From Branchiostoma floridae (Eukaryota; Chordata; Leptocardii; Amphioxiformes; Branchiostomatidae), in contig NC_049983.1 in the NCBI RefSeq assembly GCF_000003815.2, positions 4,813,817-4,877,816 of the forward strand: a DNA stretch of 64,000 nucleotides, given 5' to 3'. The first letter of the stretch is position 1. Each line of letters opens with the position of its first letter. Under the pieces are notes generated by a model. That model searched no databases. It worked only from the letters and a program-made list of their open reading frames with translations, and was not told the origin of the DNA. This document shows positions 1 through 28,900 of this stretch, piece after piece. The translations under genes were made by a program, and so were the position numbers.

Positions 1-424
1 ACACCGGTACAGAAAATTCAGGTCCAGGTCCGGTTCAGGTCCAGAGGATCAGGTCCAGGTCCGGACCTGAACCTGGACCTGATTCAGTATGACTCATACT
101 AATGGTCCATTTCACTACAAAGAAATCTGTTTGGTGGAGTATTAGACTTACACTGGCTTTTTAAAATCCTACAACGCTAACTGCACCTGTACGATTGGCT
201 GTAAAACTTGGTAAAAATTACTATAAACTCTACTGTACTTCACTCTTGTTATCCTCTTCCACCTGCAAGCGCCAAAACGTGTGAATGCCTGATGAAATAA
301 TCTGTTGATTTTCTAATAGGTCCAACATCCGGTCCACCTAATTTTTTCAGGTCCGGTTTTTCTGGACCGGTCCAATAAGAAAAACCGGTTTTGTACCGGT
401 ACGCTGTACCGATACCCAGCTCTA
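1..424 (+). mobile_element. Non-autonomous hAT-like MITE, copy A (left end cut by window)
   Basis: Almost identical to the complete copy at 51839-52269, including the internal hexamer-like GGTCCAGGTCCGG blocks near the left end and the right end reading GTACCGATACCCAGCTCTA. The window starts about ten bases inside the element. It has no coding potential; its superfamily is inferred from the 8-bp target duplications around the other copies. Confidence 0.75.
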
Positions 425-654
425 GTTGCGCACATACTGTTACTCTAGCGGTTGAGAACTCCAATCCGTATCGTTCTTTGAGCCTGAAAAAAACACCAGT
501 TCCTTGTTAACATTTATGAATAAAGTTAACAACTATGTGTACATTATGTGTGGCTGCTTTCTTTTTGCCAATGAATGTCAAATTTGTATTATACTACCTC
601 CCACACCACCTCTCGGCCCCTCCTCCCGTGGTGGTGCGGTCCAAATGACCAACT

Positions 655-730
655 CCGAATTATCGCACACGCCGGATAATTGCACGAAATTCGCTGGCAA
701 ATCAGGTGTGCAATTAAGCGGCTTACACTG
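655..730 (+). mobile_element. Fragment of pogo/Tigger-like MITE
   Basis: About 75 bp ending GCGGCTTACACTG followed by TA. It resembles the right end of the copy at 54265-54722, sharing AATTGCACGAAAT and GGTGTGCAAT. Truncated and old. Confidence 0.5.
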
Positions 731-1154
731 TACATACAGAACAGCTTTACGTTTGAACAAGGTTGTCTGGCACATCTCTTTATGACATGAGTTCAGACAT
801 GGACGCATACTGGTATAACAGCAGCTTTTTCCAAGATGAGCCAAGAAAATGCCATTTGTATCAAATACAGGTTAATTTCTTAATGGAATGAACTTGTTAA
901 AAGTTGTTACAAAGGTAATTATAAAGGATCTTCCTGTGACTTAAACATCTTGAAGTTGAAGTTCTTGAACATCTTTCTGCCTGTGGTTTGAGCACTTGTC
1001 ATACAAAGAGCTGATCTTTTGCCTACCGTGGGTATGAGTCCTCCAGAAACAGGAGTAACGTTAGTGTGTTAACTTTGATTTATGTGACTTTGCATAGATG
1101 ACTTGAAATTTAGGATTCATAAATGGCAGTCCAACATGAACATATTCCTGACTA

Positions 1155-1497
1155 GTCTGTGTAACACAAACTCTGCTGTCAAAGGCTGTAACTGAACCCA
1201 CCCTGCAAAGGAGGCCAACCAGATGTTGATGGGCTGTTATAAGTGAGATTTAATCAGGCTAATTCCTGACAAAATAATTTAGATTTGTGTATCACAGACT
1301 CGTCCAGAGTGAGCTGTAATTACTCTGCATACTGCCGATGACATGCTGATGAATATTGTTCCTTGACCGTTATGAACATGTTTGACTGTATTTTAGCCTG
1401 ATTTAATCTCGCTTATAGCAGCCTGCCCAACATCCGCCGGCCCCCGCGGGGAGGGGCCAGTTACAGCCCTGGACAGCAGAGTTTGTGTTACACAGAC
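1155..1497. mobile_element. 343-bp MITE with ~110-bp terminal inverted repeats and TA target duplication
   Basis: The left arm starts GTCTGTGTAACACAAACTC and the right arm is its reverse complement (...GTTTGTGTTACACAGAC). The inverted similarity continues for roughly 110 bp on each side (CTGCTGTC, GGCTGTAACTG, GATGTTG, AGATT-AATCAGGCT). TA sits on both sides (1153-1154 and 1498-1499), as expected for a Tc1/mariner-type target. No ORF is visible. It lies upstream of the first HAUS7 exon seen here, probably in an intron of that gene. Confidence 0.75.
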
Positions 1498-2194
1498 TAA
1501 CTGTATTTCTTCTCAATTGAAACCACTTATAACTAGTACATGTATACCCGCTACCTCCAGTGGCTATTTCTCTGGTCTGCTCCTGTTCCTCAATCCTGAC
1601 ATGTGCTGGCCATGAATGCTGAGTTCAATATTAGATATTGACTCTGTACTAGTAAATGGCTCTCAATCTCCTTCTTAATATCAAGCACAGGTTTAGTAAT
1701 GTCATCAGTAACACAATGCTTGTTGCAAATAGAAAAAATGTAAACTGCAGGACAACGAAAGAAGTCAGGTTCTCCCTCCATTTTAAATTGGCTCACAAGA
1801 GGTCACCATGCCGGTGTGTCTGTAATACAATCCTGCACTGAAGGTGTATCTAGACATAACCATCTCTCACAACAATAATCACAGCACTCTCACAATAGTC
1901 ACAATAGTCACAGGACTATGAGTATACTGTTGTCAGATGAAAGTGGTTCTCACAGTCAGTCACTCTTACAACTTAGAACAATTAGATATTCAGTCTCGAA
2001 AAGAAATTTTGCCTTTGCCTTTGTGCTATCTCATTCCATAGGAAAATGAACCTGCTGTGATGAAAATTGCATGTCTTGACTCACCCTCATACATGTTATT
2101 TTTGTGGTCCAGCATATCTGCATTTTAGAATGTTAAATGAATCTTATCTTGCTAATGATGGTAATGATGTTCAGATAATAATTTTTTTCTGTAG

Positions 2195-5100
2195 GGCACT
2201 TGCTCTTTTCCGGGACAAGCATCGTTCATGGACCAGTTGATAGACATGGTGTGTATCATCAACAGTTCTCAGGATGCCACCCAGAGAGCCATGTCCAGCC
2301 CTGGGCACATCAGGTCAGTCGCATCAAGTAGACAGATTACCTGTTCAGCCACATCAGGTCAGTTGCTTCAAGTAGACAGATTATCTGTCAAGCCACATCA
2401 GGTCAGTTGCATCAGGTAGACAGATTACCTGTTCAGCCACGTCAGGTCAGTCACATCAAATAGACAGATAACCTGTCCAGCCACATCAGGTCAGTCACAT
2501 CAAGTAGACAGATAACCTGTCCAGCCACATCAGGTCAGTCACATCAAATAGACAGATAACCTGTCCAGCCACATCAGGTCAGTCACATTAAGTAGACAGA
2601 TTACTGTACAGTACCTGTCCAGCCACATCAAGTCAGTCACATCAGCATCAGTTCTATAGCTTCTTTTTTTATTAATCAGCCATAGGGGCGGCAATTTTTT
2701 ACTCAACAGGTACTAGTAGTTATTCCCTGGCGGCGCCTATCTCCTCTCCAGGCCATGGTGAGTGATTGATGTAGATGTAAGTCACCCGTATGGCTGATAC
2801 GAGACAGAGGTTTGCCAGGCCTCCATCCAGGTGATTTGTACAAAATGTAGTGAATCACCAACTTCAGACAGAGTAGTTTGCACCATCCCACACCAGGGTA
2901 TCCCTACCCTAAGATATACATGCAAAATTATGTACAGTCAGTACTGTAGTAAACACAAATGCTTGGTAATCGAATCATGAACACTCAGTGTCTGCGACCA
3001 GGATGGTACATTTCTTGTTAGTATGGCTGTTTTTATTTATTTATTGATCTTCAGACAGGTGGGTAGCCCCTTCAACTTGCTGGAAGTTTTGGTCTAAAAT
3101 TACAATATTGAAGATACTGAACAGTTATATTAATTAACATTTATTTATCAGGGTTCACGACATGCTCTTAATGGAGGATTCTGATCCTGTTTTATCCTGT
3201 TTCTTTAGACCTGTACAACATGTGACAGCTCTGGTTGGAAACCGGGTCAGGAATGACCGCTCGCTAGCCGGCCTCCAGCCGGTCTGTTATCAATTAGTAC
3301 TGCCCGTCCCTCTGCATCTGAGGGACCATTCGCTAAGACTACTGCTAGGACTAAAAGACAAATAAACCTCTTTATTTACGTCAAATACTTTTTCTACAAG
3401 CAATCATAAAGCTCAGCAAAATTCTTTAAATATATCCTGTAGTGAGTCCAGACCCTTGGTGGAGCAGGCAGAGGCTGACTCCCACCTAATGGACAGATTG
3501 AGCAGACAGTACACCTTCCAGTCCATGTTCTCTCACAAACTGGCCCTCCTGCCACCAGACATCAAACATAGTGTGGAGAAAGGATGGATGGATGCTGGCA
3601 ACCAGAAGGGATCAGGGTGAGTTAGATAGTGGAAACAAATGAATGAAATGAATGGTTCTTAATACATGTAGTACATTGTTCAGACACAACATGCAATAGC
3701 AGTTGTCATTGGCGTAAATGGATGTTTTACAGTTGAAAATAATCGAAAAGCAATAAATATATATAAATTTATTCATACATTTAACATTACAACTTAAAGG
3801 CCAAACAAAGCACATTTTTTACATGACTGTATATGCAAGTTATAAGTCAGGCACTTAGAGTCTAGGTCGACCAGGTAAGGCAGTGTACCCGATATCTAGC
3901 AGTTCTACGTTTGAATTGCATTATTTACATAGTATTTAGACATAAGAGTTTTGCCATGGAGACTCACAGGGTTTGGCAGTAGCCATTTCGAGAAAGTCGT
4001 GGAGATCAATAAGGTCAGGTAGCAAACTTAGCACATAGTTCACATTGCTTTTAAAAGCTGTCCATGCAACCATTGGTGGGAATGAAATATTATGGTGGAA
4101 GTATGAAGTATAGTTTGTCAAATGAGTGCAAGTGCAGTAAGTCTGCACCGGAACAGTTACACTACAGGGCACTACGGGGACACCACACTACAGGGACACT
4201 ACACTACAGGGACACTACACTACAGGGACAGTATACACTACAGGGACATTACACTACAGTGCACTAGGGGGACACTACACTACAGTGACATTACACTACA
4301 GGGCACTTCGGGGACACTACACTACGGGGACACTACACTACAGGGACACTACACTACAGGGACACTACACTACAGGGACATTACACTACAGGGCACTAGG
4401 GAGACACTACACTACGGGGACACTACACTACAGTGACATTACACTACAGGGACATTGCACTACGGGGACACTACACTACAGTGTCATTACACTACAGGGA
4501 CATTACACTACAGGGCACTACGGGGACACTACACTACGGGGACACTACACTACAGGGACACTACACTACAGGGACATTTCACTACAGGGACATTACACTA
4601 CAGGGCACTAGGGGGACACTACACTACGGGGACACTACACTACAGTGACATTACACTACAGGGCACTACGGGGACACTACACTACAGGGACATTACACTA
4701 CAGGGACATTACACTACAGGGACATTACACTACAGGGGGTACAGACACTGTAGTGCATATGTGTCACGGTGGCATGGTAGTGAGTCAAGTAGAATCAGGA
4801 CAGAGGCATAATGTTGCGGAGATGATAACTTTATTCAGAGATCAAGTGGACACGTCCTTTCCCTGCCACGTCTCTCCGTGGAATCCCCTACCCTCATACG
4901 TGTCCCTTCTCAAACCCCTGTACATCTGCTCCCAATTACTCGGGTGACATTCCCCACACCAGGGGTGATCACAGAGTGATCACGATATCACCTCGTGACA
5001 TATGGACACTACATGGGGTACAGACACTACAGAGGGTATGGAGACTGCAGGGAGTACAGACACTACACACTGTGGGTACAGCCACTACAGTGGGTACAGA

Positions 5101-8075
5101 CACTATAGACACAACAGTGGATACAGCCGCTATAGAAGGTATAGACAGATTACAATAATAGGAATAATTCTCTATATACATGTCTTGATTCTCAGTTTTA
5201 TTGTGTTAAAACTGTATAATTCTGCTGCTGCAAAAATTTGGTAAAAACTGATTGTCCTATCTGGTAATGAGTCTACAGTTTGATCATTTAACCAGGGAGC
5301 TGGAATGGCACTGGTTTAAAGTAGCGATTAGTCCCAGTATAATGTTAGAAGTGCAAAGAGTTGCCTGTCATGTTGTTTCCATGGTTACCATGTATGATTT
5401 ATCCTGCCCTTCCTCCAGCCCTGACCCCCCTGATGTTGGTACCTTACTGGAAGCAGCAGCAGGGTTGAGCCGACAGCTGGAGATCAGCACAGCTCAGCTG
5501 CACCACCTACAGGTGAAGGTGAGTCATGGTCTAAATCCATTTAACTTAAGTCTTCCAACTAGGAGTGGGCAATGTTACCGATACAAAACATTAAGGGACT
5601 GTGAAAACTAATTGAATACCTGATACTCAAGGCAATGGTTCTTTTCACAACAAATTAAAGGAATCTGTTAGGTGGGGTATCTGACTCCCACTAGTGTTTT
5701 AAAAATCCTATCTTCATGTAATATTACGTTATGCTATTTTTTCTGTGTTCTATGCAACAAATCAGAGCAAAAGTGACATGATTCCTTAAAAACTATATTA
5801 CGCTAGTACCATTCAAAAACTATGATATCATGTCTCAAAGTTAATCTTTTGTTGTTGCAGCATACGTATGGAGAGCCCGACCATTTGTCTGTCAGTAGAG
5901 TGAGTCAGACACTTGGGTTGGTTTTGTCGGAGTTGGAACAGCTACTTACTGGATTCTCCTACTGCTACGAGCAGGAACTGCGCTCATGGTGTAACCGCAC
6001 CCCTCCAACTCTAAGTGAGCTGGGCCCTGCCTTCAAGAGAGTCCACAGTCTCCTCACTAACTTCACCCAGGTAGGGCAGACTTGAGTGTTTGCATCACAG
6101 AGAGTCCACAGTCTCCTCACAAACTTCACCCAGGTAGGGCAGACTTGAGTGTTTGCATCACAGAGAGTCCACAGTCTCCTCACTAACTTCACCCAGGTAG
6201 GGCAGACTTGAGTGTTTGCATCACAGAGAGTCCACAGTCTCCTCACTAACTTCACCCAGGTAGGGCAGACTTGAGTGTTTGCATCACATAACTGGAAAGT
6301 GTCCTCGAGCTGTGGTTCTCCTAAAACAGCAGTTTTACATCCTATCTAAGAGGATGATGTTCCTCTTCCTCTTCCGGTTGAACCCAGACTGGAACCCAGA
6401 ACATCTTTATTCCTCCCTATGGCCTAGGTGTTTCTGTTTGCCTGACTCACCCTTGCCAAAACCTGCTGACCCTAGTTTTCCAACATGTTCTCCTCATTTC
6501 TGTTTAATAGAAAGGGGATATAAACAGACCCACTGAATACAAGTCCCCAATATGTTGACATCATATGTATACATGAATTTTTTTTAATCCAGTGCTGAGA
6601 GGGTTAAATGCATTTACAGTATCTTTACTGTTTCTGTAGAGATTGTGAACAAAATCTACCCTTTATTGCTTTTTATGACCTAATGATCAATAGAATAGGT
6701 TATAACAACTTAATAGTACAAGAATGGTGATTATACTCCATTCAGCTCCGAGGAAATGTCCAATCATTAACTCACCTGTAGCAATACCTGTTTCCTCAGG
6801 AACTTTGTACAGATGTCAAAAGTTTTTTTTACTGGTGCTGTAGAGATAATTGTGAAAGATTGTGGACTAATCTACTTTTTATTGGTTTTTATGATTTTAG
6901 AATCAATAGAATAGGTGCAGATAACTAGACTCTGAAGCAAAGTAGAGACTGTAAGCTTTGATTGATGATACAGAATGCTTTATCATAAATGTATTCCCTT
7001 TGCCAGACACTGTCAGAATAAGGTTTATTCAACACTAAAGGAATAGTGAAACCAACAAAGATTTAGATTTGATATTGGAAGTAAAAGCTCTTACCAGTGT
7101 AGTGTCATAATGACCTGTTTCCTTCCCCCCAAGGAAGTGAAGTTGTTCTTGGTTTGTCTTTGTTTCCGCTGTTATCATTATACACAATACAGTGTGATAC
7201 TGTGAGGATATTTTAAGGGGTTTAAGTGTGTCATGTCTATATTTATGCTGCACTGTGCTCCTCCCAGCTCCTGACCAGTCTGGACACACTGAAGACCTCC
7301 TACAGCAGTATCTGCCAAGGGACTAACCCACAGCAAGACCAGGTGTCAGACAGACACAATGGCGTATTCAACAGTCTTGGTGAGTAAACCCGTCCTCTGT
7401 GACGGACAGCAGTCGATATGTAAAGATATAAAAAACTGTCTCCGTTTTGTAAGTCTTCACCAAAAGTGGCCGTTGAACAGCTTAGTCTACCAGCAAATTT
7501 ACAACTCAAAATGCTGGAAATAGTGTTTCAGTGGGTCTAGATTCAAAAATTTAGACCGGACCCCCATAGGAACGACTTCTGTGCTCGGTAGGATTCAAAA
7601 TGGAGGGGAGAGAAATGATTTCAGGCTGGCTACTAACCTGGTATATACTATGTACTATGTAGAAAAAAACAATCTGGAAAAGCAGAGTTTAGACCCATTG
7701 CTCCTCTCACACTACCACAAGCATGCATATTCTGAGCAATTAGGTCCTCAGCAAAGAAGAGTCCTTGAGACTTACTTTGGAAATGAATGACCACCAAAAA
7801 TACAATGGATTGGTGGAAAATTTGGTAGTTATTCTCTTCAACAAAGTTTAATCCTTCTCCTTAATGTTGAGTAACAACACACAACATTTCAAGCAGAAAA
7901 AAGACATCGCCATCATGGAAGACAACTTTGATCATCTCCATTTCTCTCCTCAGCATTATTAGGCCAGTCAGCAGCCTTGAAGATGCAGGACTGCATCAGT
8001 GTTCTGGACCAGTCTGTTCATCGCACCAGTGCACTCCAGGACTCCACTTTACTGGCCTCAACAGCCTTGTCATGA
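2195..8075 (+). CDS. HAUS7: HAUS augmin-like complex subunit 7, C-terminal exons (5' part outside window)
   Basis: Six coding exons joined by GT-AG introns: 2195-2313, 3443-3616, 5419-5518, 5861-6070, 7268-7379, 7954-8075 (TGA 8073-8075). They sum to 837 nt, 278 residues plus stop, and all phases agree. The product resembles the second half of vertebrate HAUS7 (~368 aa in human): FMDQLIDMV matches human FMDQLLDTI, then GLSRQLEISTAQLHHL, then SELEQLLTGFSYCYEQEL and the C-terminal LLTSLDTL region. HAUS7 is one of eight augmin subunits; augmin recruits gamma-tubulin to spindle microtubules so that new ones branch off. The end of exon 3 could also be 5512, since both donors are in frame. The N-terminal ~130 residues must lie left of the window. 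Exon calls and the family assignment come from my own reading and recall of the human protein, not a search. Confidence 0.85.
2308..2650 (+). repeat. 44-bp tandem array carrying repeated 5' splice sites
   Basis: Units start at 2308, 2352, 2396, 2440, 2484, 2528, 2572 and 2626. The spacing is exactly 44 bp except for the last full unit, which has a 10-bp insertion. Each begins CATCAGGTCAGT, which in the first unit is the HAUS7 exon end and donor (CATCAG|GTCAGT, donor at 2314). Near-identical donors recur at 2358, 2402, 2446, 2490, 2534 and 2578; the last unit has lost it (CATCAAGTCAG). Confidence 0.85.
4155..4740 (+). repeat. 16-bp minisatellite (ACACTACAGGGACATT type)
   Basis: About 585 bp of head-to-tail units of 16 bp (ACACTACAGGGACATT or ...GACACT), with shorter 12-bp variants (ACACTACAGGGC) and a C/T exchange in the G-run segment (CTACGGGG). 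It sits in a HAUS7 intron. The apparent ORFs of 60-118 codons across it arise only from the repeat. Confidence 0.85.
4762..5000 (-). mobile_element. Solo LTR, probably of a Ty3/Gypsy-type element, inserted in the minisatellite
   Basis: A 239-bp segment beginning TGTCACGG and ending CGTGACA (TG...CA ends), flanked by the 4-bp direct repeat TATG (4758-4761 and 5001-5004). Read on the minus strand it carries a polyadenylation signal, GAATAAAGTTATC, about 65 bp before its end, as in the R region of an LTR. The flanking sequence on both sides is of minisatellite type, so the insertion split the array. No internal region remains; recombination between two LTRs is the likely history. Confidence 0.65.
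5001..5155 (+). repeat. Degenerate 18-bp tandem array (GGGTACAGACACTACAG type)
   Basis: Repeated GGGTACAGACACTACAG, GGTATGGAGACTGCAG, GGGTACAGCCACTACAG and similar units continue on the far side of the solo LTR. They look like a derived form of the 16-bp array to the left. Confidence 0.65.
5560..5715 (+). mobile_element. Decayed copy of the hAT-like MITE family
   Basis: Starts TAGGAGTGGGCAATG and ACCGATACAAAAC, then CAATGG-TC-TTTCAC, AATCTGTTAGGTGGGGTA and TTTTAAAAATCCTA, all colinear with copies A and B but diverged and with the middle deleted. It is in the HAUS7 intron after 5518. Confidence 0.55.
5861..6070 (+). CDS. HAUS7: HAUS7 exon whose 3' end and donor site are tandemly repeated
   Basis: A 70-codon exon in phase 0 at both ends, with acceptor TTGTTGTTGCAG before 5861 and donor CAG|GTAGGG at 6071. 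It encodes the segment corresponding to human HAUS7 residues around the DFHQLILAFLQVYDDEL helix. Its last 33 nt (11 codons, RVHSLLTNFTQ) plus 30 nt of intron form a 63-bp unit that occurs four times in a row. The next real exon (7268) starts in phase 0, so splicing from the first copy gives a continuous protein. Confidence 0.8.
6038..6289 (+). repeat. Four 63-bp tandem units spanning an exon end, donor and acceptor-like AG
   Basis: Units start at 6038, 6101, 6164 and 6227 and are nearly identical. Each holds 33 nt of exon-type sequence ending ACCCAG, a donor (GTAGGG at 6071, 6134, 6197, 6260) and a short tail, GTTTGCATCACAG. That tail places an AG directly before the exon-type sequence of the next unit. 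Confidence 0.9.
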
Positions 8076-8512: not shown

Positions 8513-8962
8513 AATTAAAAAGTACACATGCCCCTGATGGCATACTACTTACAAATGTACTAGATGTGGTTCTGTTGAACAAGAACTTGTAATTTGTATA
8601 AGACTTGCTCATAGCTTGTGCAGAAAACTTTTGTTCTTCCAGTCCATTGCTATGCTGTGAGTACCTTCCTGAATACTGTTATATTAATGAGGTCAGTTTT
8701 TGCCCGTCTTCGGTTTTTGTGCAAGCTAGTTATGTACATTACTGGATGATATGAGATGATGTTGAAAAGTCTTGACATTTACATGATAATGATACCCCGC
8801 TCCTCTTCAATGAAAGCTGTGCATCACTTTATCCATCCAGACATCCTTTAATGACGTTTCGTTCAGTAATTAAAATAGGCAATAATGAACGAATCATATC
8901 ACATCTGCTACATCTATCATTTCATCATATTTTACTCTCATGGGCTGCCAGCCACAAATAAA
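8513..8962 (+). terminator. Candidate polyadenylation signals of HAUS7
   Basis: ATTAAA near 8513 and AATAAA at 8957-8962 follow the HAUS7 stop. The second is followed within 30 bases by T/G-rich sequence (TTTGTCATGTTTGTTGTT), as expected of a cleavage region. The choice between them is a guess. Confidence 0.35.
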
Positions 8963-11009: not shown

Positions 11010-11636
11010 TCACGCGCAGGTTACCGGATATAACGTTATATCCTCATACATGTCTTCAAAGTTCTTCTCCATGAAATCTACATAAAATTCCTTATCTTCA
11101 GCTGTCGGACAGTAGCTATCATCCTCGTCGTTTCTTCTTGGCGATGGGGTGTGGGACAGATGCCCACCGAAGGCTTCAAGCTCCTCGGCAAATTCTGTTT
11201 GGGAGAAACTACACAGAAAAGTCTCGTATACCTCGGTGAAGTCTTGTTCCATGAAGGTTTCTCTTAGCCTGTTGTCTTCGTCCTGTGACTGGTAGACGTA
11301 GTCGATGTGGAACGGGTTTCTGGCAGGACTGGGAATTCTCTGGTTGAGCGCGTGTGGTGGGGAGCATGGCTCGGCACATCTCGACATGGAATCGGTTGAG
11401 TAACAGAAACGGTCGTCCATCAGAAACTGGGTGGTGTTAGCCGGGGCACAAATGGTCTGACGCGGTCGGAGGCACGGCTGCCGGTTGACGCGATGAAGGG
11501 TTGTGTTCGCACAACACTGTGGCGATCCTAAAGTTTTCCGCCGAGCCAGACTGGCCTTCTTCTTTCCTCTTCGGACACATCTTCTTCTCCGTAACGTTAA
11601 TGTTGGCTGCATCCTACAGATCCTACTGCCGCACAT
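11010..11636 (-). CDS. HEXIM-like protein, short and divergent, single exon as read
   Basis: A 208-residue ORF with ATG at 11634-11636 and TGA at 11010-11012. Residues 15-34 are an arginine/lysine-rich arm (RRRRCVRRGKKK). Residues 64-75 read APANTTQFLMDD, nearly the signature APYNTTQFLMDD of HEXIM1/2, with Tyr replaced by Ala. Residues 128-138 (FMEQDFTEVYE) match the HEXIM FLQRDFSETYE segment, and a second similar stretch follows at 188-198 (FMEKNFEDMYE). The order basic arm, PYNT box, acidic FxxxDFxExYE is that of HEXIM, which with 7SK RNA inhibits P-TEFb (CDK9/cyclin T). Missing: the long C-terminal coiled coil that dimerises and binds cyclin T. A further exon could supply it, or the protein may be a reduced paralogue. 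Human HEXIM1 is also intronless in its coding part. The family assignment rests on motif recall, not a search. Confidence 0.65.
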   Translation of the reverse strand: MCGSRICRMQPTLTLRRRRCVRRGKKKASLARRKTLGSPQCCANTTLHRVNRQPCLRPRQTICAPANTTQFLMDDRFCYSTDSMSRCAEPCSPPHALNQRIPSPARNPFHIDYVYQSQDEDNRLRETFMEQDFTEVYETFLCSFSQTEFAEELEAFGGHLSHTPSPRRNDEDDSYCPTAEDKEFYVDFMEKNFEDMYEDITLYPVTCA

Positions 11637-11639
11637 TTG

Positions 11640-11850
11640 TTGAAAACGTTGGTTAGTGAACAGGAAAACCTTTTTCCGTCGTGCCGCTGTGGCGTCCTCA
11701 CGTTGTGCACACTGTTATGGAAATCGCCGACAAACAAACGCGTCTCGACGTTTGCGCAACGTCGGGAGGACGTTACAACATCGTCATAGCCCAAAATAGC
11801 AACCAATCACCGCGCAGTTACGCGCGATGAAATAGAAACAAAGGGAAGCA
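11640..11850 (-). promoter_or_regulatory. Probable promoter/5' UTR of the HEXIM-like gene
   Basis: Immediately upstream of the minus-strand ATG the sequence becomes rich in CG dinucleotides (ACGCGTCTCGACG, CGCGCAGTTACGCGCG), with a CCAAT box (AACCAATCACCG, around 11799) and repeated AACGTT. No TATA box is evident. Confidence 0.4.
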
Positions 11851-22900: not shown

Positions 22901-25900
22901 GTATCTGCTTAATATATCTTCCACCTGCCACAAACTATATATGTTAAATGTATTTGGGTCCTGTATTGGAAAACACTAAATATAGATTTTCCTCATTTCC
23001 TCATCCAGTATGCAAATTAAGTCCAAATTTGCATAATTTGCACTTCATTATGTACATCTCTTACATGCTTTGATACTCTGTGTAATATGTTAATATCAAA
23101 GCATGTCTTACATGTATATATTTTTATACCTATTACAGGTTCAAAGGATCCAGCCTGTTTGGGAAGGGATACAAGCCATTATTCCCTTATTTCAGTGAGG
23201 TTTGTCAAATCATTTATGTACACTGTATGTAAATTCAGTGCTCACAAAATGGGCCATGTATTGAGAAAAAAGGTTGTAAACATGATTGTGTCTTACCTGG
23301 GCCACCATAAACGTTCAATACAGGTGTTCTGCACCAGGTGATAACTTGCTTTGTCATACATGTACCTGGGTCGCCATAACCTTCGATACGGGTGTTCCAG
23401 ACCAAGTAATAATCAGTATCACACAGGCTTCTTAGTTGTATCACACAGGCTTCACTCGATTATGATTAGAACGCACTCCATGCCGTTGCTATTTATGAAA
23501 TCATAATTGTTAGCCAACGGAGTTCTTTTGTTTGAAGTTTTCTCGAATTGATGTTCCTAAAGGGTGTGCGTAACTTAAGTATAAAATCTTCTGTTTATAT
23601 TCCACAACCAAGTTGGTATTATTCAACCAACGTACACGTTCGCATTTGCACCAAATATACACCATTTTCCTATTATAATTGGACATTGCACCATCAAAAA
23701 TCATTCTTCAGACTCGAGAATTGGTACCTCGGATGATAATATACTGAGTGGTGTTCCATATTAATTATCATTTAGTCAGATAGATCTAATGTTGACCAAT
23801 GAGGCTCCATTTTTTCATACCACTGGTTATTAAAGGAATCTATTGTAGTATCTAAGCTATCAAAACATGAAAGCAAAGTTACTGATTTTGGTATTTTTTT
23901 ACATTATAAGTTGAATCCACCTTATTACACTGGAGAGCAATATTGACAACACATATTAAATGCTTAATGAACTCGGCTATTTCCGATGGTTATAGAAACT
24001 GACTAGGCCTCATGACACCATATACATGTACACCTCAGTGCAGGTTGATTACCTTGTGATTTTTTGAAATGATAATAGCAACATTTCCACAGTTTTGCAA
24101 CATCTGGTTCAATGATGACATATAAATCCATTTTGCAATAAATTTTGTACTTTAATTTTGCAGCAAATCGACTCAAATATATGCCTAGTATATGTATATA
24201 GTTTCAAGTCAACAACTTCTGTGGTGGAATTCTGACTGCTGTATGGGGAAGTCTTATGAATTGTGTGTTTAACTTAGTAAATAATGCTTACATCACGATC
24301 TCTGTCCCAAAGCGCAAGAAGTCAGGAGCATTTCGCATCTTTGTTGATGGCTATGTTACCACGGAAACTGGAACTGGAGTGGTCCATCAGGCGCCATACT
24401 TTGGGGAGGTGAGGATGTGTTATTATGGCTGGTTTTCACTAGCATAAAGAATGACCATTTAATCCTGTTAATGTGTGGTGTATACGAAAAGAGCCTCAAC
24501 ACCATGTCACATTCAATAAAAAAGCTTGTCACATCCCAACGTGGAAACCGCTTCAAAAGCGGACGTCTTCCACGCGACACTTAATGAAGCCATCGAAACC
24601 CACTTCCCAACTAGAGTTATCACAATGCACAGTACTGATAAACCCTGGGTGACACCCCAGATTAAACACCTCATCAGTCTGCGACAGAAAGCCTTTCACA
24701 AACAAGGCAGCGTCACCTGGAAGTTTTACCGGAACCTTACTCAACGCGCACTGGCTCAAGCGAAAAAGAGTCACTACAGTGACCGGGTGGCCTCCCTCAA
24801 ACATGCTAATCCACGGCGCTGGCATCAGGAGGTAATGAACATGGCCAATGTGAGTAAAGGTAGTTCAGAGTTGAGAATCCCGGAACTGAACAACGAGGAC
24901 AACGCAGCCGTTGCAAACATCATCAATAGAAAGTTTGCTGAAGTCTCTAAAGCACTCCCGGCACTTGATCTCTGTCAACTGCCCACCTTCCTACCCGCTA
25001 CAAACAAGCTCCCCACCCTGCATGTTTGGGATGTGTATCAGCGGCTTCTGGCTGTCAAGACGTCAAAGGCACCGGGTCTAGACAATATTCCCCTGAAGCT
25101 ACTCCGTGAGTTTGCCTGCGAACTGTCTACACCGTTCTGCCACATCCTTAATACATCATTCCAGGAGGGAGTTGTACCGAACCAGTGGAAGCAGGCGGTC
25201 GTTGTACCCCTTCCTAAGACTCACCCTGTCAGTTTAGATCAGCTACGACCTATCTCCTTAACTTCTCAGTTTTCGAAGATAGCAGAGTACTTTGCATTGA
25301 AATGGATTCTACATGACATTAAGTTTGACAAGAGACAGTATGGCAGCCTTAAAGGCCGCTCAACCGTTCACGCCCTAGTCAGCTTAGTGGACAATCTATG
25401 CAAAGACACTGATGCTTCAAAATCCATCTGTACTTTGGTAGCTACCGACTTTTCTAAGGCCTTCGATCGAGTACACCACAACACTGTAATCCTAAAACTG
25501 TTAAACAAAGGTCTGAGGCGCGAGTTAATACCCTGGATTTGCGACTTCATTTCCGATAGGAAGCAGTGTGTTCGGTACCGTGGTGCGCTGTCCAGTTGGG
25601 AACATCTCTCCTGTGGTGTTGCTCAGGGCACCTTACTCGGTCCCATCCTGTTTCTGACTCTTATTGACGATGCCGCAGGTAACACCAACATTCCTACGTG
25701 GAAGTACGTGGATGACATGAATCTGCTGGAGTCTAGAGCCCTCCACCAGCCTTCCACCCTTCAACATGAGTTGGACGAGCTACACGCATGGTCTACCAGC
25801 AACCACATGCTGTTGAACAGTGGCAAGTGCCTCACCATGCATGTGACCTTCTGTCGTAACCCTCCACTGCTCCCACCACTCCAGATTCGTGACACACCGT

Positions 25901-28900
25901 TAGCCGTTGTTCCCAGTCTTAAAGTTCTTGGACTACATGTCCAAAAGGATCTGCGATGGGACAAACAGGTTGACCAAATGCAGAAGTCCTCGTCGAGGAA
26001 GCTCTACCTCCTCAAACGGCTAAGGAAGTTCGCGCTGTCATCAGCTGACTTGACAACTATTTACACAGGCTATATCAGGCCAATTCTTGAATATGCGGCC
26101 CCTGCATGGTCACCTGGGCTGACACGCATACAATCGGACAAGCTGGAGAGAATCCAGAAGCGAGCGTGCCGCATCATCTTAGGCAACGCCTACACAGGCT
26201 ACCTCCCTGCACTGCAAACCCTCGGACTTGTTACCCTAGCAGAAAGAAGGGAGCAGCTCTGTCTCAAGTTTGCACGGACATTGCTGAACTCGGAATACAG
26301 AGAATGGCTGCCTGCGACAAGATTCCAGATCTCTGGTCGGGCCACCAGAAATAGCCACAAATTGAACAGTCATATGTCCAGAACAAACCGATATAGCAAC
26401 TCACCGATTCCCTATATGAGCAACCTGCTCAATGCATACGGACCATAATTCCAGCATTAGTCATTACTATATCCACATCACCTAAATAATACTCCCCTGT
26501 TATCAGACAATCGTCCAAATGAAATTTCAACCTATGTATATATGTATATAGTACTTATTCCTAGCAGTAATATGTAATATTTGAATGTTTTTACTGTGTG
26601 TTTCGAATGTGAATTGAATTCAATTCAGTGGTCACACTGCGAATTTCAATAAAGTCATCATCATCATCATCATCATCAAACCATGTGGACGCCACGGAAT
26701 TTGTTACCTCCGGTCTCTTGTTGGTTTTTAATTTGTACATGCCATGGTCTTGACAGTAGCAGATTGCTTTGGGGGCCAGGAAGACATTGTATAGACTTTG
26801 GTTCTCAGTTGCTTTTATTCATATTGTACTTTGAATGCCTCTCATCTGATCATCATTATCATCTTTGAGTCCATCTAGCCTCTATTAGATAAAATTAAAC
26901 CAGACTAGAATCAATCAAACCACTTCCAACAAATCCCTCTGTTTTGCAGGATGATTACCGAGTTTGTCTGGCCAATGATGTCATTTCTCGAGATGGTGCA
27001 GTAGTCTGCCCTGTAGATGCCAGCGGCTGCTTTACAGAGGAAGTCACCGACTTCAAGGGACAGTATGTCAAGGTAAGAGTTGAAAAATGGAGTAGAATGG
27101 AAAGAAGAGGCACATGCATGTGTATGTAGTCAATGATGAAAATCAACATGCATAAATCATGTAAATATGTAAGCCATTTGCATTAAATTTTTAAAGCTCT
27201 AAATATGAGGTGGCTGAAGTCTAGTTCTGCACTTTGCTTTCCACCTTCAGGAAGCTGACAAGAACATCATCCAATGGCTAAAACAGCAGGGCCGACTTGT
27301 GAACCAGGGGACTTATGTGCATAGCTACCCTTTCTGTTGGCGTTCAGAAACCCCACTCATCTACAAGGCAGTGCCTGGTTGGTTTGTGCGTGTAGAGCCC
27401 CTCGTCGAGAAACTACTACACAACAACAGTCAGTGTTATTGGTAAGGTTTACTATTTAAGTTGTGTAAAACAGGGTTTGAAATAACGTACTCCTGAAGGC
27501 CAGGTTGCCCAATGTGTAATGTAATTGTGTATTGTGAGTGAGGATGACGATCGAATCTTAACTTTACGAATTACCAATGATTTGTGTGTACCTATCTGTA
27601 GAATCCATTGTAGTTTTTCCATTTTACGTTTCTGTTTTATGGACTTGTTTGCAACTTGCCTTGGAGAGAGGGTGGAGTTGGTCTGGGTAACTCCCCCGAA
27701 ATGATGATGATTATGTGACTTGCCCCAGATATTTTGATAAGTGTGTGTTCCTTTTTTTTCCTCTTGGTATTTTCTATATTTTAGCACAATTATCTGGGGA
27801 AAAGAGAATTAACACCATAAATTTGAATTCATCTGGTAGAAAATGTGTTGAAGGCCAGTGGAGAAGGGGTTGTACTTTATTAGTTAATAGGAAGCTCTTG
27901 AATCAGTTACACATATAAAAAAGACACGTACCTCTAAATGTTCAACGTCTTGCAGTATATCTTGCTCACGGAAAAGACTCTTACATGATCAAGATAAACT
28001 GCTAGACAGAAGAATTTCCTACTGACGTGACAGAAGAATCACTTAAATGATGAACTTCATTTAGTTTGATTTTTTCAGTTTACTTTTCAGCCCCCCAGAT
28101 TTGTCTTATACATTGTGTACTTGCCTTGACTTGAGGGTGTGTACCTTAATCGTGAAAATGCAGAAATAGTCTGGGGGCTGTCCTTGTTATTTTACTAGGG
28201 CACCCATACTCCATCTGATGAGGTATGGTTATTGGTAGTAAATCAAAAAGGATGCCACTGGACGTCAGCTATTTGATAATATGCTTTAGTAAACCATGTA
28301 TTGCCTGTTTGTGTCTCCAGGGTGCCAGCGTTTGTGAAGGAGAAGCGATTTGCCAACTGGCTCCGCGATGCTCATGACTGGGCAATCTCTCGCAACCGTT
28401 ACTGGGGAACACCCATCCCACTCTGGGTCAGCGAGGACTATGAAGAGGTCAGACAAAGAAATCAGAATTGTTTCAAATGGTGAAGGCTTTGTAAGAGGTA
28501 TGAAGGAGGCCGTCACTGAACAGAATATTGAACATTATCACAGATTTATTGCTTCCCGTAGGGAAAACATTATGAGGAAGGGTCAGGGTCAAGCCTATTT
28601 AAATTTATGGCAATGCCTCAGTAGTGAGCATGGTGGTTTAAGTACACAAATTGTTTTATATATTGTAGCTGGACAAAATGCAAATTCCTGGGAGGGAAAC
28701 ATCCTGCATTTTCTGGAAAACGTTGCCTTTCTAGTTGTTTTACTTTGGGAGAGTAGAGTCTGCATTATCAGTTGTTTAGCTCCATCTGTTGTAAGTGCTC
28801 TGATTATTGTTTTATTCAGGTTGTTGCTGTTGGATCTATTGAGGAACTGTACAAATTGTCTGGAGTCAGGGTCAAAGATCTCCACAGAGAAAGGTTGGCA

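Follow-up and report, generated by a model that had tools for sequence, protein, structure and literature searches.

A probable lancelet mirage at the 3' end of a HAUS7 exon in Branchiostoma floridae

Four nearly identical 63-bp units lie head to tail across the end of one exon in a 64,000-nucleotide stretch of Branchiostoma floridae DNA (the window). Does the spliceosome treat these units as alternative exons, or as one true exon end followed by copies that leave with the intron? The first-pass annotation favored the former, reading the units as four potential 33-nt mini-exons that could lengthen the protein by 0 to 3 repeats, perhaps with exon birth in progress. We find that the array is best explained as a lancelet mirage, with splicing from donor 1 to 7268 and removal of units 2-4 as intron, and we place the probability of this reading at about 0.88.

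The host gene had been named as HAUS7, and homology supports that name. Using phmmer with the joined exons 5419-5518, 5861-6070 and 7268 onward as query, we recovered 7sqk_G ('HAUS augmin-like complex subunit 7', E = 9.2e-11), 8at3_G ('HAUS augmin like complex subunit 7 S homeolog', E = 9.4e-6) and 9nba_G (AUGMIN subunit 7, E = 0.0012), followed by two unrelated chains at 0.11. We take 7sqk_G to be the human chain and 8at3_G the Xenopus chain. Pfam returns only Plant_NMP1 on this gene, at 24.1 and 18.9 bits, below the cut-off of 25. With exon edges inferred from frame, GT/AG and homology, the five exons below join into 715 stop-free nucleotides.

2195-2313, forward strand: upstream HAUS7 exon (FMDQLIDMV...), placed by alignment to 8at3_G, splice sites and frame.
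3443-3616, forward strand: HAUS7 exon, placed by frame, GT/AG and homology, with the least certain acceptor edge (score -0.94).
5419-5518, forward strand: HAUS7 exon, placed by frame, GT/AG and homology.
5861-6070, forward strand: HAUS7 exon ending in unit 1 (210 nt, 70 codons, phase 0 at both ends, last residues RVHSLLTNFTQ), placed by translation and phmmer.
7268-7379, forward strand: next HAUS7 exon, placed by splice sites and frame, the 6070|7268 junction being collinear with 7sqk_G.

The alignment to 7sqk_G, the closest HAUS7 chain in the PDB, runs gap-free across the 6070|7268 junction (Q|L) with no room taken by an extra unit, and we therefore take the form that lacks any extra unit as the probable ancestral one. 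The alignment to 8at3_G has a one-residue gap, five residues ahead of this junction.

The array itself is far beyond chance. Tandem Repeats Finder (TRF) places a single array at 6036-6288, with a score of 499 for 4.0 copies of period 63 and 98% matches, and both this call and the comparison of units bear out the proposed tandem duplication over an exon end and its donor. Every unit consists of 33 nt of HAUS7 coding sequence (RVHSLLTNFTQ), a CAG|GTAGGG donor and a 30-nt tail, and the units start at 6038, 6101, 6164 and 6227 in the register of the first-pass annotation. The parts of the array that matter for splicing are as follows.

6038-6289, forward strand: mirage array of four head-to-tail 63-bp units, defined by TRF and unit comparison.
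6071-6076, forward strand: donor 1 (GTAGGG), the site expected to be used, with identical copies at 6134, 6197 and 6260.
6101-6133, forward strand: exon-like piece of unit 2, beginning 30 nt past donor 1.
6164-6196, forward strand: exon-like piece of unit 3, whose branch candidates lie in unit 2.
6227-6259, forward strand: exon-like piece of unit 4, the most feasible single mini-exon.

Units 1 and 3 do not differ at any base. Unit 2 carries one T>A change at unit position 21, silent in a Thr codon, and the sole change in unit 4 is its last base (G>T), so that it ends in CACAT and not CACAG. The flanks match the unit at only 16 and 15 of 63 positions, which is chance level, and the array ends are thus clean. 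The left flank is TTCAAG and the right end CACAT, and these letters suggest that the CACAG at the inner unit borders is the product of the duplication joint alone. Because the copies are nearly identical, the expansion is probably recent or homogenised. Across the assembly (513,431,437 bases, 431 contigs), the array finds a single matching place, its own locus, among the best candidates scored. An open frame of 126 amino acids on the minus strand (5965-6345) crosses all four units, as expected from a period divisible by three and one stop-free frame.

The mini-exon proposal depends on geometry as well as on frame. Its in-frame arithmetic is sound. Neighboring units are separated by just 30 nt, from the donor to the following CACAG, and no yTnAy branch motif was found in 6071-6100. 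In a human study, 22 conserved ultra-short introns of 37-65 nt were screened and 15 had evidence of splicing, and the minimal productive donor-to-branch distance in human is given as 46 nt. These limits are human and carry over to lancelet by inference; on them, splices from donor 1 to unit 2, from donor 2 to unit 3 and from donor 3 to unit 4 would all be excluded. Given this gap and the lack of a yTnAy motif, two neighboring units could not both serve as exons, so the picture of four mini-exons fails and a unit spliced as its own exon beside a neighbor, as polymorphic exon repetition would have it, would not be possible under human limits. Starting at donor 1, the feasible targets would be limited to unit 3, across a 93-nt intron, and unit 4, across one of 156 nt, never both; this shrinks the range of extra units from 0-3 to 0-1. 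On the route to unit 3, the T>A change in unit 2 has abolished the CTAAC motif and left two loose branch matches. On the route to unit 4, a CTAAC motif places its A at 6186, 40 nt upstream of the AG, and both frame and donor are intact.

Site strength was scored with a hand-entered vertebrate matrix applied to lancelet sites. On this scale donors 1-4 all score 9.78; the sequence gives donor 1 no advantage, and competition is conceivable among these identical sites, which lie within 190 nt. The CACAG at the unit border, a pseudo-acceptor, scores 5.65 with the same matrix. Four of the five inferred HAUS7 acceptors are higher (8.68, 10.67, 9.71 and 9.22), and the one at 3443 is below it (-0.94). 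Seven of nine globin acceptors also exceed it while two, at 5.2 and 5.6, are no better, these having been chosen with some bias as the best-scoring AG near each match. In all, 11 of these 14 inferred real acceptors outscore it and three do not, and the doubt that had been raised about the acceptor is justified. Within the window, 6.8% of the 3,792 AG dinucleotides score at least as high as the pseudo-acceptor. It is thus weak but not impossible, within the range of real acceptors.

The mechanism that best fits these results would begin with tandem duplication of a 63-bp stretch straddling the 3' end of the HAUS7 exon and its donor, giving rise to the minisatellite. Unit 1 would retain the authentic exon end, splicing would join the donor at 6071 to the 7268 acceptor, and units 2-4 would leave with the intron. 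The border CACAG made by the duplication joint would most likely be no working acceptor. In agreement with this scheme, frame and the alignment at 6070|7268 place the authentic edge in the exon-side unit and the extra units on the intron side. We infer use of donor 1, a variable copy number and a neutral effect; alleles are expected to differ in their count of units, and the extra copies most likely remain intronic and leave the protein unaltered.

The equal donor scores raise the alternative that donors 2-4 are used part-time, so that a stop-bearing extended exon feeds mRNA decay and unit number tunes HAUS7 output. The stop four codons into the read-through (VGQT-stop), pointed out earlier for this array, is indeed seen in each unit, and direct use of donors 2-4 puts a stop at exon codon 75. 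Regular splicing is what published data on other lancelet mirages suggest, and we consider part-time use of the distal donors unlikely. RNA folding that might hide donors 2-4 gave no signal (z = 1.47, with 189 of 200 shuffles folding at least as well). It is less likely again that one extra unit, most plausibly unit 4, enters a small share of transcripts as an in-frame 33-nt mini-exon that adds RVHSLLTNFTQ once. The geometry of unit 4 permits this, three of the 14 inferred real acceptors are no better than the pseudo-acceptor, and the recruitment of mirage units has been proposed in general terms by Ebner et al.; against it stand the weak acceptor, the regular splicing described for published mirages and, for unit 3, the lost CTAAC. 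If true, inclusion of unit 4 would be a mirage turning into an alternative exon of an augmin subunit. Exon birth is not needed as an explanation for an array of a known kind whose splicing, on Adh3 data and globin RT-PCR, seems regular, although birth of one mini-exon keeps a low probability; as a reading it is a published general hypothesis, and nothing here supports it.

That the unit number is an assembly error, or the state of one haplotype only, seems slightly less probable than the mini-exon. A published globin mirage is stated to have appeared aberrantly assembled in the genome draft that its authors used, and PMC3902484 reports PGBD5 arrays whose unit number is unequal between two assemblies. 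However, units 2 and 4 each have a private base change, the 252-bp array is well inside the reach of one long read, and the PGBD5 arrays are backed, in the same paper, by re-sequencing data. Least probable of all is that CCCAG|GTAGGG in units 2-4 acts as a recursive splice point, a zero-length exon that leaves the mRNA unchanged: 13-14 of the 18 positions ahead of the AG are pyrimidines, but the acceptor scores just 5.48 in units 1, 3 and 4 and 3.19 in unit 2 on the same vertebrate matrix, and the hypothesis is not needed. We therefore retain the mirage reading, in which the HAUS7 array is real, recent and ordinary of its kind.

We further note that the array is not alone. HAUS7 carries another donor array, the globin genes carry one of the acceptor type, and a sample of the genome adds at least three more of mirage-like form.

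2306-2611, forward strand: second HAUS7 donor mirage, 44 bp x 7.0 with 90% matches and CAG|GTCAGT in seven units, from TRF and aligned units.
L011, 954-1601: acceptor mirage in a globin gene, 158 bp x 4.2, which repeats an intron end with its acceptor and the first part of the globin exon that follows.
L024, 6030-6461: acceptor mirage, 52 bp, with eight copies of the acceptor edge (seven CAG, one AAG).
L024, 8526-8864: donor mirage, 49 bp, with seven donor copies, on an exon that has no Pfam match and is called coding by its open frame alone.
L014, 9762-10000: donor mirage, 86 bp, with three donor copies, on an exon without a Pfam match.

The second HAUS7 array is more diverged than the 63-bp array (90% against 98% matches) and has an eighth, altered copy, CAA|GTCAGT, at about 2632. 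Between two HAUS7 exons, distant from exon edges, there is also a dense 16-bp-based minisatellite (CACTACAGGGACACTA) at 4170-4737. The genome globin search gave nine matches, and one of the nine loci, L011, has a boundary array no more than about 1.5 kb from its match when periods of 20 and more are considered. It corresponds to the published BflGb6 mirage in unit length and position, with a unit number of its own.

Two contigs supplied the sample, 20 segments of 10 kb at even spacing with 187,624 unmasked bases in total, in which TRF found 21 arrays of period 20-400. Five of these, picked for splice-like motifs, were read by eye; three of the five are mirage-like, making at least three in 188 kb, and the arrays at L014 7525-7794 and L031 4675-4812 gave no clear assignment. 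The last copy of the L024 acceptor array opens an exon coding a homeodomain piece (Pfam E = 6.2e-6), in a homeobox gene region, presumably Pax6-like, to which the L024 donor array belongs as well. In that donor array, the donors at 8543-8558 and its copies lie, as judged by eye, inside a short perfect inverted repeat (GGTAAC-CATA-GTTACC) that could mask the splice site. Three mirages per 188 kb would mean thousands genome-wide, a figure with wide error because the count is small, comes from two contigs and includes two mirages within 3 kb of each other. Donors of at least 7 bits are found for 6 of the 21 arrays, where 20 random draws average 2.7 and reach 6 at most; at 8, 9 and 9.7 bits the counts are 3, 2 and 0 and the random means 1.75, 0.5 and 0.3, so that donor enrichment among the sampled arrays is suggestive at best. 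No genome-wide mirage count was seen in the largely open-access literature searched.

Taken with the HAUS7 arrays, the three or more mirages in the 188 kb sampled suggest that boundary arrays are common in the lancelet genome. If so, lancelet genomes would be a natural experiment in how the spliceosome chooses among identical neighboring sites, and would offer a way to test the published idea that such arrays give rise to new introns or exons.

Two further features of the window lie apart from HAUS7. An open frame of 642 amino acids at 24520-26448 holds a reverse transcriptase domain (RVT_1, E = 7.1e-19) and is flanked on both sides by matches to class I tRNA synthetase exons. On the minus strand at 11010-11714, an open frame of 234 amino acids matches HEXIM (Pfam E = 1.9e-8).

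Mirages were defined as lancelet minisatellites that span exon/intron boundaries (Ebner et al.), and the array at 6038-6289 has both properties: its units span such a boundary and it lies in a cephalochordate genome, whose assembly also contains the globin array of BflGb6 type. The hosts named in the available texts are Adh3, BflGb6, BflGb9, troponin C and PGBD5; PMC3902484 adds troponin C and describes, in lancelet PGBD5, arrays with units of 60 bp and 108 bp that cover splice sites. HAUS7, with two arrays, joins this short list. According to Ebner et al., results on Adh3 and RT-PCR of globins suggest that regular splicing goes undisturbed; the paper also puts length or copy-number and somatic instability on record and proposes that a mirage unit could become a recruited exon. 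The accessible portion of the huntingtin paper mentions tandem repeats and no boundary arrays.

Published mirages share with HAUS7 the minisatellite-like duplication across a boundary, on the donor or acceptor side, and the splice signals within units. The 63-bp unit falls inside their spread (10-72 bp in Adh3, 60 and 108 bp in PGBD5, 150-160 bp in globins). HAUS7 differs in that it is not among the host genes named in the available texts and has two donor arrays in one gene; its unit length is also divisible by three, and every tail contains a stop. The Rogers model of intron gain, cited by Ebner et al., likewise duplicates an AG|GT proto-splice segment, whereas the HAUS7 array duplicates the donor of an existing intron, with no new intron or exon shown. 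Introns of amphioxus VCBP3 hold complete or partial exons, a number of which have canonical splice sites, that resemble the coding exons beside them; the available part of that description includes no tandem boundary array. A close parallel is offered by the 3 x 108-bp array of PGBD5, another gene with imperfect units, where a gene prediction built an extra exon 5 from most of two units and the authors of PMC3902484 excluded it.
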